Origin: Luteibacter sp. Sphag1AF
GTDB taxonomy: Bacteria; Pseudomonadota; Gammaproteobacteria; Xanthomonadales; Rhodanobacteraceae
Length of the DNA stretch: 64,000 bases
Direction: 5' to 3'
NCBI RefSeq assembly: GCF_014192715.1
Contig: NZ_JACHYH010000011.1
Location: 1-64,000 of the forward strand
Below the pieces are notes generated by a model. It had not been told where the DNA came from. It ran no database searches and saw only the letters and a list, made by a program, of their open reading frames with translations. Below, piece by piece: positions 28,721-33,366 of the stretch. Made by a program: the position numbers and the translations under genes. Each line of letters begins with the position of its first letter. Position 1 is the stretch's first letter.

Positions 28721-29224
28721 ATGATCCGTGTTCCCACCTGGCTGGCCCGCGCTGGCGCCGCCGCCATGCTTGCCAGCCTGCTCGTGCTTGCCGGCTGCCA
28801 CAGCGGCAGCTCCAAGGTCGATCATGTGTCGACCGAACAGGGTCAGTTCGACATGACGCTGAAGGCTTACAAGAGTGGCCAGTTCCTCGTGGATGGCGCA
28901 GTGCTGTCCGCCGCCGACACCGGCAGTCACTTCAGCTTCCTGAAAGACACCGGCCACCTGCCCAAGACCGTGCTGCTGCTGCCCAGCGATGAGTCCAAGA
29001 TCCGCGACAACCATCTTGGCTTCATGGCCCGCATGCAGCTCGATTACGGTTTCACCGTGTACTACGACAAGAAGGGCGAACTCATTCGTCTGAATGCCGT
29101 CGAGGCCAAGGCCCGCGCGCTGGAAGACACACCGCAGAAGTCGGAGCTTCCGGATCGCATGCAGGGCAAGGACGCGGCAAGCGGCACCTACGATCCGTCG
29201 AACCGGAACCAGCAGGGTTTCTGA
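28721..29224 (+). CDS. Putative lipoprotein of unknown function
   Basis: A 167-residue protein with a type II signal peptide: charged N-terminus, hydrophobic core and lipobox VLAGC with the lipidated cysteine at position 26, followed by small residues (HSGSSK). The body is mixed alpha/beta with no recognised domain, and the last 20 residues are polar. No outer/inner membrane sorting aspartate follows the cysteine, so outer-membrane localisation is likely. Confidence 0.75.
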   Translation: MIRVPTWLARAGAAAMLASLLVLAGCHSGSSKVDHVSTEQGQFDMTLKAYKSGQFLVDGAVLSAADTGSHFSFLKDTGHLPKTVLLLPSDESKIRDNHLGFMARMQLDYGFTVYYDKKGELIRLNAVEAKARALEDTPQKSELPDRMQGKDAASGTYDPSNRNQQGF

Positions 29225-29287
29225 TCGTGCATCAGGGTCGAAAAAACGACGTTCAGTAGCCGGTCAAAACGCGCTGCGACGGTCAGG

Positions 29288-29322
29288 AAGGCGCCCCTCG
29301 TGAGAGGGGCGCCTTTTTCTTT
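29288..29322 (+). terminator. Terminator after the lipoprotein gene
   Basis: AAGGCGCCCCTC with its complement forms a 12-bp stem with a GTGA loop, followed by TTTTTCTTTT. It lies about 65 bases after the lipoprotein stop. From 29323 to 29527 I see only a small GCGCCAG/CTGGCGC hairpin near 29330 and no gene. Confidence 0.9.
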
Positions 29323-29527
29323 TGGGTGAGCGCCAGGCCATGGGCTGGCGCTGGTCGATCAGGCGGGCATTGCCACCATGGTTCGTGGATGTTGGCTATC
29401 CGTGGGTCAATTCTCGAAATCTGCTTTGGTTGCCGTCAGCGACGACAGGATCGTGCATGCAAGACGTTGGGGCGCTCGCCGTTACGCCGGATCGGTCGTG
29501 GGTGCCTGCGTTGTCGTTCGACTGTCC

Positions 29528-29869
29528 TTACGACGTCTTTTGGACGCCTTCAAAGCTGGTTTTGTAGGCGCCGATCACATAGGCGAGCTGGAACTCCGTG
29601 GCGCCTGTCACCGCGTCAAGGGCATCCTTCTCTAGACCTCCCGTCCGCGCGGTGCGTGCCAGGGCTTGGATCGCGGCGGCCAGTACGTCGGCGGCGTCCT
29701 GAACGGCTTTCATCGTGCCGCCCAGTTCTTTGTAGTCCATGCTGTCGGCCCAGCGATCGGCGTTCTTGCTCAACTTTTCAAATTCGTCCTGCGTTACGGT
29801 TTTGTCCGCGTCGATCTGTTGCAAGTAGTAGCTAACGCCCGGATCGGTAGATGTCAAAGTCAGGCTCAT
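29528..29869 (-). CDS. 113-residue protein of unknown family, paralogue A
   Basis: A 113-residue, probably helical, cytosolic protein without signal peptide or transmembrane helix. It aligns without gaps to the protein at 31513-31854, identical at roughly half of positions by eye. Strongly shared blocks are VT.DEF near residue 25, LSK.ADR near 33, and EFQLAYV near 92. AAGGAG lies 7 bases before the ATG. It faces away from a degraded DLH start, mirroring the intact pair at 30685-31854. A tempting EF-hand-like stretch at residues 17-28 lacks the required glycine. No function can be assigned. Confidence 0.75.
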   Translation of the reverse strand: MSLTLTSTDPGVSYYLQQIDADKTVTQDEFEKLSKNADRWADSMDYKELGGTMKAVQDAADVLAAAIQALARTARTGGLEKDALDAVTGATEFQLAYVIGAYKTSFEGVQKTS

Positions 29870-30021
29870 AACACGCTCCTTATGGGTGGGTGGCTGAACC
29901 TAGACTTCATCGCAGAGTGCGCGCAACTCTCCCCGCCCGCTCACATGGCGCGCGCAGAGGCGGACTCCTACATCCGATGGCCGCTCAATGTTTCCCTGTC
30001 AATCACAATCATCGCGCCCGC

Positions 30022-30204
30022 ATCGGGCGACAGCGTCACGCTTGCACCGGCGCACCCAATGAGGCCATGAACGCCTACATCCTATGGCCGAATAAAACGG
30101 CAATGGCAGGCATCGTCGCGAGTCGGGACATCGGGGGCGTGAACGTCCACGTCCGCAGGATTGCCGACTGTTTTGCCGAAAAAATGTCGGTGGCTATGGC
30201 GCCT
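30022..30204 (+). pseudogene. Decayed 5' end of a dienelactone hydrolase gene
   Basis: Sixty-one codons align without a gap to residues 1-61 of the intact DLH at 30685-31359 on the other strand (shared PNE, IVxxxxIxGVN, ADxFA and VAxAP). About half of the last 46 positions are identical. The start codon aligned to ATG reads ATC, and similarity stops at 30204, shortly before a hairpin and the HIT gene. Upstream, TTTCCCTGTCA and CACAATCA, at 29991-30009, are also shared with the intact gene's leader. The spacing to the neighbouring 113-aa gene (152 bases) nearly equals that of the intact pair (153). Confidence 0.75.
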
Positions 30205-30221
30205 CGTGACCGGAGTGCATG

Positions 30222-30262
30222 CAATGGCCCGACGCGGCATGTACTGCGACGTCGGGCCATTG
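30222..30262. other. Perfect inverted repeat next to the HIT gene end
   Basis: CAATGGCCCGACG (30222-30234) and its exact complement (30250-30262) form a 13-bp stem with a 15-base loop. It begins 4 bases after the HIT gene stop in the transcribed direction. No T-run follows, so it may protect the transcript end or mark the junction where the DLH copy was broken. Confidence 0.5.
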
Positions 30263-30265
30263 CCA

Positions 30266-30688
30266 TCATTGTCCGGGTAACTCCACAGGCAGCTTTTCGC
30301 GGAGGCGACGGATCAGCTCGGCAGAATCCGTTTCATCCCGCGGTAATGGCCGGCCGCTTCCCCATACAGGGCCGGGCCACGCATCGTCGCCCACGCGGCG
30401 GGCAACGACATGCACATGCAGCTGCCGCACGATGTTGCCCAGCGCACCGATGTTGATCTTCTCGCACGGGCCCGTACCGCGCAGGGCCTCCGTTGCCTGG
30501 TTCACTTCGTCCCACAACGCCTGCTGGTCGCTCCTGGAAAGGTCCGTGATCTCGGCCAGGCCGTCATGCCTCGGCACCAGTACCAACCATGGGAAGCGTG
30601 CGTCGTTCATCAGCAGGACACGGCAAAGCGGCAGGTCGCCCACCACAAGCGTGTCGCCCGCGAGGCGGGCATCCAGTTCGAACCTCAC
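30266..30688 (-). CDS. HIT family protein
   Basis: A 140-residue histidine-triad protein. The catalytic segment reads QLHVHVVARR (His91 and His93), with glutamine in place of the first triad histidine, as in several bacterial HIT proteins. Members hydrolyse dinucleoside polyphosphates or nucleotide phosphoramidates, but the substrate here cannot be told. It overlaps the upstream DLH gene by 4 bases, so both are translated from one message. Confidence 0.85.
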   Translation of the reverse strand: MRFELDARLAGDTLVVGDLPLCRVLLMNDARFPWLVLVPRHDGLAEITDLSRSDQQALWDEVNQATEALRGTGPCEKINIGALGNIVRQLHVHVVARRVGDDAWPGPVWGSGRPLPRDETDSAELIRRLREKLPVELPGQ

Positions 30689-31359
30689 GCGTCAGCGGCC
30701 AGATGTTTTGCGAAGAACGCGAGCGTGCGCTCCATCGCCAGCGTCGCACTGGACTCGTCGTAGCTGGAGCGTGCGTCGCAGTTGAAGCCGTGATCCGCCG
30801 GATACACCCAGGTATCCATTTGCGGCATCAATTCGCGATGCTTTTCCACCATGTCTGCCGGGATGGAGTGATCACGTTCCCCGAAATGGAACACCACGGG
30901 CGCCTTGGCTTCCTCGGTGAGAAACGGAACGTTGCGCGAGCCGTAGTAACTGGCCGAGGGCAGGCCAAGCCGGATGGCAGCCATCACCGCGATGGTGCCG
31001 CCCCAGCAATATCCCACCGTGCCAACCTTGCCGGCGTCGGCGATGGCGAGCGCGGCAATGCCTACGTCCTCCATCGGACGACGAAGGCCCAGTTCGGTGA
31101 CCAGTTTCACGCCTTTCTGCGCCGACTCAGGGTCATAACCCATGTCCACGTGCTTCTGCACAGGATCAAACAGGGCGGGCGCTATGGCGACATACCCCTG
31201 GTCGGCAAACCGGTCGGCCACGCTGCGAATATGGGCGTTCACGCCGAAGATTTCCTGGATCACCACGATGCCGCCTTTGGGCGTCCCGGCAGGCCGTGCG
31301 ACGTAGGCGTCCATGGACTCATTGGGTCGGGTGGTGTCGAGAGTGATGAAGCTACCCAT
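30685..31359 (-). CDS. Dienelactone hydrolase family protein
   Basis: A 224-residue alpha/beta hydrolase of the DLH family. The nucleophile is the cysteine in GYCWGG, the acid lies in GERDHSI and the histidine in PADHGF, giving the Cys-Asp-His triad of this family. The substrate may be an ester or lactone other than a dienelactone, since no aromatic degradation genes are near. It is divergent from the 113-aa gene at 31513 and followed, with a 4-base overlap, by the HIT gene. A decayed relative of its first 61 codons lies at 30022-30204. Confidence 0.88.
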   Translation of the reverse strand: MGSFITLDTTRPNESMDAYVARPAGTPKGGIVVIQEIFGVNAHIRSVADRFADQGYVAIAPALFDPVQKHVDMGYDPESAQKGVKLVTELGLRRPMEDVGIAALAIADAGKVGTVGYCWGGTIAVMAAIRLGLPSASYYGSRNVPFLTEEAKAPVVFHFGERDHSIPADMVEKHRELMPQMDTWVYPADHGFNCDARSSYDESSATLAMERTLAFFAKHLAADA

Positions 31360-31410
31360 CGTAAACTCCGTGATTGTGGGTGACAGGGAAACGGTGACTG
31401 GCCATCAGTG

Positions 31411-31426
31411 GTAGGAATACTCCTAC
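31411..31426. promoter_or_regulatory. Palindrome in the DLH/113-aa divergent region
   Basis: GTAGGA-ATAC-TCCTAC has two perfect 6-bp arms. It sits about 50 bases from the DLH start and 86 from the 113-aa gene start, a position that could serve as an operator for both. The duplicated copy keeps one arm (TCCTAC at 29970-29975) followed by the same GATGGCC block. Operator function is inferred. Confidence 0.35.
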
Positions 31427-31512
31427 AAGCGTGCAATCTCCGCGAGAGCAGCGAGTGGATGCGTCTCACGGGCAGGTGCATAGTCCGGCTCCCTGACGAC
31501 GGAAGTAATGCC

Positions 31513-31854
31513 ATGGCGCTGACGATTACATCCACGAATGCGGGCGTTCAGAACTATATTGACCAGACGATGGGAGACGAGGATGTCACGCTGGATGAGT
31601 TTGAGGCCTTGAGCAAGGCAGCTGACAGGCGGGCAGGCAACCTGGACTATCCGGCGTTGACCGATACGATGGCCGCTTTTCAGAAAGCGGCCGACGATCT
31701 GGCGGAAGCGACAAAAGCCCTGGCATCTGCTGCCAGGCGCGGGGAGATCACAGGCTATAAGCTTGACGCGGTGATGGGTGTCGTCGAGTTCCAGCTTGCC
31801 TACGTCGTTGCAGGTTACGAAACCTACTTTGAGCACGAAGAGCCGATGCCCTGA
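31513..31854 (+). CDS. 113-residue protein of unknown family, paralogue B
   Basis: The same length as paralogue A at 29528-29869 and alignable end to end without gaps. The conserved blocks (TSTxxGV, VTLDEFEALSK, EFQLAYV) point to an all-helical fold with a polar N-terminus and amphipathic helices. There is no signal peptide, no membrane segment and no cysteine. The ATG at 31513 follows GGAAG and matches the paralogue's start. It is transcribed away from the intact DLH-HIT operon. I know of no assigned function. Confidence 0.75.
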   Translation: MALTITSTNAGVQNYIDQTMGDEDVTLDEFEALSKAADRRAGNLDYPALTDTMAAFQKAADDLAEATKALASAARRGEITGYKLDAVMGVVEFQLAYVVAGYETYFEHEEPMP

Positions 31855-32046
31855 GGCTTTCCCGCGTGTCGCCGGCCCAGGCTCCCTGCTCGACGAAAGC
31901 TTCGTCTGGCGCAGGTAGCCGGTTGCGCTATAAATGAGTCCATTCCCCGTTGAGACCTGCCCCGATCCCTGGCAAAGGTGTCTTTCGGGCGGGAAGGGAG
32001 GAACCGGGTATAATGGCCGGTTTCCCACCTCCCGGTACCCACGACC

Positions 32047-33366
32047 ATGTCGTCCCAGGCCGCCCCGAAAGTAGGTTTCGTCAGTCTCGGTTGTCCGAAG
32101 GCTTTGGTCGATTCCGAGCGCATCCTTACCCAGCTGAAAGTAGAGGGGTACGAGATCGTGCCGACCTACGGCGCGGCTGACGCCGTGGTGGTCAACACCT
32201 GCGGCTTCATCGACTCGGCCGTGCAGGAGTCGCTGGACGCCATCGGCGAAGCCCTTCACGAGAACGGCAAGGTCATCGTCACCGGCTGCCTGGGCAAGCG
32301 TTCGGAGCTGATCCGCGAGGCTTACCCCGACGTGCTGGCCATCACCGGGCCGCAGGATTACGCCAGTGTCATGAGCGCAGTGCACGCGGCACTGCCGCCC
32401 AAGCGTAATCCGCTGCTGGATCTGGTGCCGGACACGGGCGTGAAGCTCACGCCGAAGCATTACGCGTACCTGAAGATTTCCGAAGGCTGCAACCACCGTT
32501 GCAGCTTCTGCATCATTCCGTCGATGCGCGGTGACCTGGTCAGCCGTCCGGTGGACGAAGTGCTGATCGAGGCCGAAAAGCTGGTGAAGGGCGGCGTTCG
32601 CGAACTGCTGGTCATTTCCCAGGACACCAGTGCATACGGCGTGGACATGCGTTACGCCGAGCGCACCTGGCGCGGTCGCGAGTACCGCACGCGCATGACA
32701 GAGCTGTGCCAGGGCCTGTCCGAACTGGGTGTGTGGACCCGCCTGCACTACGTGTACCCGTACCCGCACGTGGACGAAGTCATGCCGCTGATGGCGGAAG
32801 GCAAGATCCTCCCGTACCTGGACATCCCGTTCCAGCACGCCAGCCCGCGCATCCTGAAACTGATGAAGCGTCCCGGCAACGTCGACAAGACGCTGGAGCG
32901 CATCCAGAACTGGCGCCGCCAGGTGCCGGACCTGACCATCCGCAGCACCTTCATCGTGGGCTTCCCCGGCGAGACCAACGAGGAATTCCAGGAGCTGCTC
33001 AACTTCTTGCGCGAAGCCGAGCTTGACCGCGTGGGCGCGTTTGCCTACTCGCCGGTGGACGGCGCGCTCGCCAACGATCTGCCGAACCCGATCGACGAAG
33101 AGCTGAAGGAAGACCGCCTTGAGCAGTTCATGGCGGTGCAGGCCGAAATCTCGGCAGCGAAGTTGCAGCGCAAGATCGGCCGCACCATGAAAGTGCTTGT
33201 GGATGAAGTGGACGCCGAGGGTGCATGGGGCCGTTCCAGCGCCGATGCGCCCGAAATCGACGGTGCCGTGCGCATCGACGATGGCCAGCTGCTGAAACCG
33301 GGTCAGTTCGTGGACGTGGTGATCGAAGACGCCGACGCGCACGATCTTTACGGTCACCTGGTCTGA
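32047..33366 (+). CDS. rimO: Ribosomal protein S12 methylthiotransferase RimO
   Basis: A 439-residue radical-SAM methylthiotransferase that modifies an aspartate of ribosomal protein S12. The N-terminal UPF0004 domain has the auxiliary-cluster cysteines ([24 protein letters not shown]). The radical-SAM motif is CNHRCSFC, and a C-terminal TRAM domain follows. The opening [15 protein letters not shown] distinguishes RimO from the tRNA enzyme MiaB. It is followed 3 bases later by a DUF3025 gene. The preceding 31855-32046 stretch shows only a leader. Confidence 0.96.

Follow-up and report, generated by a model that had tools for sequence, protein, structure and literature searches.

The window analysed here is a stretch of 64,000 nucleotides from Luteibacter sp. 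Sphag1AF (contig NZ_JACHYH010000011.1, positions 1 to 64,000). The region described in this report, 28721–33366, carries in order a lipoprotein-like gene (+), a small gene encoding a 113-residue protein (copy A, −), a spacer, the truncated 5′ fragment of a dienelactone hydrolase (DLH) family gene (+), a HIT-domain gene (−), the intact DLH gene (−), a second spacer, a second small gene of the same length (copy B, +) and rimO (+). The segments 29528–30204 and 31177–31854 are homologous and inverted with respect to each other, each consisting of a small gene, a spacer and the first 61 codons of DLH. The open reading frames and the remnant beginning with ATC are found where a preliminary description of this region had placed them (Table 1).

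Table 1. Features of the duplicated region and its surroundings, in window coordinates.
Feature	Position	Strand	Remarks
Lipoprotein-like gene	28721–29224	+	No Pfam match; next to dcd at the loci of 19 of 21 relatives
Small gene copy A, 113 residues	29528–29869	−	Open reading frame; AAGGAG upstream; omega = 1 rejected, p = 0.002
Spacer A	29870–30021		54-base stretch near the DLH fragment alike to spacer B; GGAG lost
Truncated DLH 5′ fragment, codons 1–61	30022–30204	+	First codon ATC (Ile); no catalytic residues
Inverted repeat between DLH fragment and HIT gene	30221–30263		19-nucleotide arms, 89% complementary (repeat search)
HIT-domain protein gene	30266–30688	−	PF01230, E = 2.1e-14; core
Intact DLH family gene, 224 residues	30685–31359	−	PF01738, E = 4.1e-42; core; codons 1–61 = 31177–31359
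Spacer B	31360–31512		Divergent region between DLH and small gene copy B
Small gene copy B, 113 residues, in DLH-rimO gap	31513–31854	+	Open reading frame; omega = 1 rejected, p = 9e-5

The inverted duplication that had been proposed is real. In local nucleotide alignments compared with 500 dinucleotide shuffles, the whole unit scored 136 (shuffle mean 23, maximum 36), and its three parts, aligned separately, scored 48 for the spacer (shuffle maximum 27), 76 for the DLH 5′ end (28) and 84 for the 113-residue gene (34); none of these four scores was equalled by any shuffle. A repeat finder placed inverted arms at 29550–29620/31762–31832, 30045–30089/31292–31336 and 30109–30203/31178–31272, and identical residues occupy 59 of the 113 positions of the two small proteins. 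Past the stop codon of the small gene the likeness of the 3′ flanks is at chance level (54 of 500 shuffles reach the score), as it is beyond DLH codon 61 (100 of 500). Since similarity ends near the small-gene stop and at DLH codon 61, the remaining copy is a truncated piece, the size of which at birth is not visible. The spacers, previously described as alike, are so in a 54-base stretch on the DLH side, which accounts for the score of 48 (0 of 1000 shuffles), and not in the 88 bases on the small-gene side, where 727 of 1000 shuffles reach the score. The matching stretch is evidently the duplicated DLH leader. No direct repeat of the target-site duplication type flanks the copy among the listed repeats of at least 14 bases. 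A 20-base direct repeat, 90% alike, links spacer A (29964–29983) with the DLH fragment (30071–30090); as the intact DLH gene differs at the counterpart of 30071–30090, this repeat reflects local conversion or chance.

The DLH copy is dead, as had been claimed. The intact gene is a plain family member that matches PF01738 over the full domain (residues 16–219, 144.7 bits against a cut-off of 21), and a string search located its motifs at Cys118, Asp163 and His190, which we take to be the catalytic triad. All three lie past codon 61, so that the second copy differs from the family in being a front end devoid of catalytic residues, and it has neither a start codon nor a ribosome-binding site: in an alignment of the leaders of 22 DLH genes and the fragment, GGAG is present in 22 of 22 leaders and missing before the fragment. 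The idea that this copy held its frame for a long time before being lost is not borne out. Changes found only in the fragment number 11, 13 and 13 at codon positions 1, 2 and 3, as against 2, 0 and 7 in the intact gene (compared with DLH of the sister species L. rhizovicinus LP_13_YM, G016). For the fragment, omega, the ratio of nonsynonymous to synonymous rates (dN/dS), is 0.46, which does not differ significantly from 1 (p = 0.22). In the absence of selection its frame would remain free of stops with a probability of 0.43–0.52 under a model that leaves indels aside. The fragment would be a drifting passenger.

Both small genes, on the other hand, appear to be kept under selection, in agreement with the preliminary description, since omega = 1 was rejected for each of their branches in a codon model in which the branch lengths are at their bounds and hence saturated (p-values in Table 1). 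Of 17 columns conserved in the ten other aligned members, copy A keeps 13 and copy B 12, and of 33 columns conserved in eight of those ten the copies keep 21 and 18, respectively. Purine-rich stretches were seen by eye upstream of all 12 Luteibacter small-gene starts. The suggestion that the small protein rather than DLH is the constrained part of the locus has to be turned around. DLH is present in 22 of 23 Luteibacter genomes, as is HIT, the single genome lacking both being 80% complete, and dN/dS is ~0.12 (0.126/1.066) for DLH between the sister species and ~0.31 (0.426/1.357) for the two small genes. The small genes also change faster, as the identity of copies A and B (59/113) compares with 80% identity of DLH between the two species. 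Judged from these sequence comparisons, constraint is stronger on DLH.

The DLH and HIT genes lie next to each other at all 21 loci examined in relatives; dcd and the lipoprotein gene flank them in 19 of these and, at the other end, rimO in 20. DLH and HIT are core genes, set in the core synteny dcd-lipoprotein-HIT-DLH-rimO. The gap between DLH and rimO varies among 22 genomes. It is plain, with 127–196 bases, in eight, holds other sequence in 12, from 0.7 to at least 5.6 kilobases (a lower bound, the rimO of G019 lying past the end of the examined stretch), and contains one copy of the small gene, divergent from DLH, in two, the present genome and L. rhizovicinus. Ten proteins searched from these gaps comprise acyltransferase, serine-hydrolase (PF00144), glyoxalase, IS110 transposase, AraC-type and AIPR domains, and one without a domain. 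The varied sequence marks the gap as an insertion hotspot, with the small gene one of its cargoes, and with extra sequence in 14 of 22 genomes (31360–32046 here) it is a good place to seek accessory genes.

A conserved small-protein/DLH module, as claimed earlier, does not emerge from the search of relatives. With the small-gene profile A1, 12 intact small genes were found in nine of 23 Luteibacter genomes, and they lie beside DLH in only two of the nine. The other seven carry them elsewhere, which comes close to the arrangement, the genes apart and away from DLH, that the preliminary description had itself named as telling against it. In these seven (G001, G005, G009, G013, G018, G019 and G021) the small gene stands between an RDD-type gene and xerD, in a gap of 468–556 bases; the neighbour names RDD, xerD and dsbC are our assignments by eye. 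The corresponding gap is empty, with 8–96 bases, in 14 genomes including the present one and L. rhizovicinus. In G010 it has 135 bases and holds a 24-codon fragment (near 1357–1428 of locus L113), which is a small-gene loss caught midway. In G012 xerD lay beyond the flank. In G005 three diverged copies surround xerD (L074 8211–8561, 8587–8937 and 10120–10470), two of them between xerD and dsbC. These placements give the small gene two intergenic slots, each with its own neighbours, and make its adjacency to DLH look like a chance neighbourhood. No intact small gene is present in 13 of the 22 genomes that bear DLH, and this patchiness on the species tree suggests several losses. Matches regarded as doubtful and probably due to chance were one in G015 (E = 0.058) and those inside long frames, in G726 (767 residues), G1156 (1325), G096 and G081 (311 and 319) and a second match in G019 (942).

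In a species tree built from nine concatenated proteins the present genome and L. rhizovicinus are joined with a bootstrap of 100. The tree of the small proteins pairs copy A with copy B as sisters (bootstrap 91), and trees joining either A or B with the L. rhizovicinus protein are rejected by the approximately unbiased test (p = 0.0015 and 0.0017). Because of these rejections the duplication is most likely to have followed the split from L. rhizovicinus, unless conversion has blurred the signal. An older origin, with both copies predating the split, copy A lost in L. rhizovicinus and conversion keeping A and B alike here, would suit the DLH fragment, which is equidistant from the DLH genes of the two species (at sites where these differ it agrees with the present genome in 10 and with L. 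rhizovicinus in 9), and would also suit the HIT-lipoprotein gap of L. rhizovicinus, which at 714 bases is the longest of 19. That gap, however, yielded no trace of the unit in four comparisons (scores 20–27, reached by 21 to 274 of 300 shuffles), and the small-protein tree rejects the older origin if there was no conversion; we regard it as rather unlikely.

We propose that a segment extending from about the small-gene stop to DLH codon 61 was copied in inverted orientation to a place just downstream of the HIT gene, possibly by a fold-back or template-switch event. The copy would have carried a complete small gene, subsequently retained by selection, and the hydrolase front end would have come along as a passenger and drifted. 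Copying of an accessory small gene with a piece of its neighbour explains the duplication, and no DLH function is needed. The event itself is ordinary. It is like other partial inverted gene duplications with a passenger fragment in having two inverted arms round a single-copy core with one arm cut within a gene, and nothing sets it apart save the accessory nature of the retained gene. This evolutionary part of the explanation we hold with considerable confidence.

The duplication leads to a small-protein family that has no model in the libraries searched; it is apparently often lost, although selection acts on the pair examined here. In Pfam and NCBIfam neither window protein reaches the cut-off, and across the alignments one to three members have weak matches (best E = 0.0011) that we do not regard as credible. 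In PHROGs two of 12 members match a family without function (best 2.5e-4), which is not credible, and a single match among 12 members to the PADLOC ZorA model (3.3e-5) was taken as helix noise. Designed coiled coils in the PDB, at 8.7e-7, were likewise not taken as credible, and other PDB searches gave nothing better than 0.013. A literature search of limited depth turned up no description of the 113-residue protein. PA1620 of P. aeruginosa, a candidate relative on account of its genomic location, was dropped, as it is reported to resemble transmembrane translocators (PMC8637051).

Relatives do exist outside the genus. A tblastn search found one in 1 of 72,556 plasmid records, the conjugative plasmid p1-159 of Serratia liquefaciens FG3. 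Its protein shares 52% identity over 109 residues with that of L. rhizovicinus, and the gene (L137 15001–15330; G+C 40%) lies among insertion sequences, between an IS6-like remnant and transposase genes, with a ParE/ParD toxin-antitoxin pair ~1.5 kilobases away behind transposase genes. A neighbouring gene on this plasmid was matched in 0 of 369 Enterobacterales genomes. One convincing further genome was found among 398 in a phylum sample (G1191, E = 7.8e-16), the class and phylum samples being thin. In its genus, which we take from recognised gene content to be Pseudomonas-like, the family occurs in eight of 38 genomes (G1191 included) at nine places: after an atoE-like gene (three), upstream of two alpha/beta-hydrolase-like genes (five) and as one Luteibacter-like copy, with the neighbours named by eye. 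In a profile comparison the Luteibacter alignment matched the two larger groups with probabilities of 97.4 and 98.1 (column-shuffled controls at most 1.1, 60 each). Profile A1 had found the family only in Luteibacter (10 of 233 family genomes and 10 of 398 order genomes, all of this genus), as had a scan of genome contigs with one peptide pattern (three loci among 33 candidates, all Luteibacter); later relatives emerged with profiles A3 and A5, so that these zeros depend on sensitivity. Phages and viral contigs, and plasmids other than p1-159, gave no relatives. The small protein thus seems to be a member of an undescribed family with a patchy distribution, seen in Luteibacter, in a Pseudomonas-like genus and on a single Serratia plasmid.

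Aligned members are 105–137 residues long, some of these lengths resting on chosen start codons, and the isoelectric points of 12 Luteibacter members are 4.2–5.9. All 22 aligned members have Ala37 and Gln94, and 21 have Tyr97. Two models agree on four helices, at approximately residues 10–21, 27–43, 47–75 and 82–108, at low confidence (predicted local distance difference test score 52, predicted template modelling score ~0.3). The loop of a canonical EF-hand comprises 12 residues, of which numbers 1, 3, 5 and 12 are acidic. As in the loop of Pfam EF-hand_5, a stretch flanked by two predicted helices carries an acid at position 5 in 17 of 22 members and at position 12 in 21, but acids occur at all four positions together in 0 of 22, and only one of 12 members has a Pfam match (E = 0.07). 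The protein may be cytosolic, acidic and four-helical and would bind a partner through two conserved helices, the second and the C-terminal one (Ala37, Gln94, Tyr97); its role would be accessory, that of an adaptor, an inhibitor or an immunity-type protein, with a gene that strains gain, duplicate, move and lose. Such a partner-binding accessory role, suggested by size, acidity, predicted helices, fast change, paralogues and patchiness, is a tentative proposal; the full explanation, a copied accessory gene for a partner-binding protein with a passenger piece of DLH, we consider probable. Natural sets for probing what the small protein binds are provided by the diverged pair here and by the three copies of G005.

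Several observations weigh against this explanation. The omega of the fragment does not differ from that of the intact genes at the 0.05 level (p = 0.077), and the fragment aligns without gaps across 53 codons, the absence of indels being some evidence of past constraint. Polarised changes in the small genes are near even over codon positions (13/12/17 and 18/14/14, with a saturated outgroup), which speaks against strong constraint, and the saturation of the small-gene branches bears on the selection test itself. The 61 DLH codons allow all topologies, so that the event is undatable from the DLH part; if gene conversion has acted between the copies, an older duplication would pass for a recent one, and with midpoint rooting either slot may be ancestral. 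No neighbour shared across all small-gene settings was seen, and with no named family, low-confidence models and no universal neighbour the biochemical role rests on inference.

A general service of the small protein to alpha/beta-hydrolases would account for its proximity to DLH here and for its position immediately 5′ of two alpha/beta-hydrolase-like genes at five Pseudomonas-like loci. Hydrolases are among the commonest bacterial proteins, however; none was recognised at the RDD-xerD or atoE-like slots (by eye, with no family search) and none is annotated in the Serratia plasmid stretch, and at the Luteibacter DLH slot the small gene is divergent and outside the operon, all of which makes this role improbable. 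We consider it similarly doubtful that this gammaproteobacterial family is a cargo of one gene that travels by itself from one intergenic slot beside divergent genes to another and onto conjugative plasmids and protects its host from some toxin or phage, the duplication here being a diversified pair with two specificities. Its patchiness and fast change, the paralogues nearby, the remnant left by decay, carriage on a plasmid and lone presence in intergenic slots liken the small gene to lineage-restricted accessory small genes such as orphan immunity genes; it is unlike them in that no adjoining toxin or defence gene was recognised on the chromosomes (by eye, with no family search). Duplication of a whole small-protein/DLH divergent module, the halves of which cooperated for long before one DLH was lost, fits the divergent arrangement found in both sister species and twice here as well as the gap-free alignment and omega of the fragment, but is very unlikely in view of the small genes away from DLH in seven Luteibacter genomes, the 13 DLH-bearing genomes without an intact small gene, the lack of any DLH trace past codon 61 in the copy and the even codon-position pattern of the fragment.

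Among the minor features, the inverted repeat at 30221–30263 may form a hairpin at the 3′ end of the HIT-DLH transcript. A scan for sigma-70 promoters found none, and an Rfam search of 29200–32060 gave a single match, at the terminator of the lipoprotein gene. This is a terminator-like hairpin at 29285–29325, 3′ of that gene, and the match, to ctRNA_p42d, is weak and below the gathering score.

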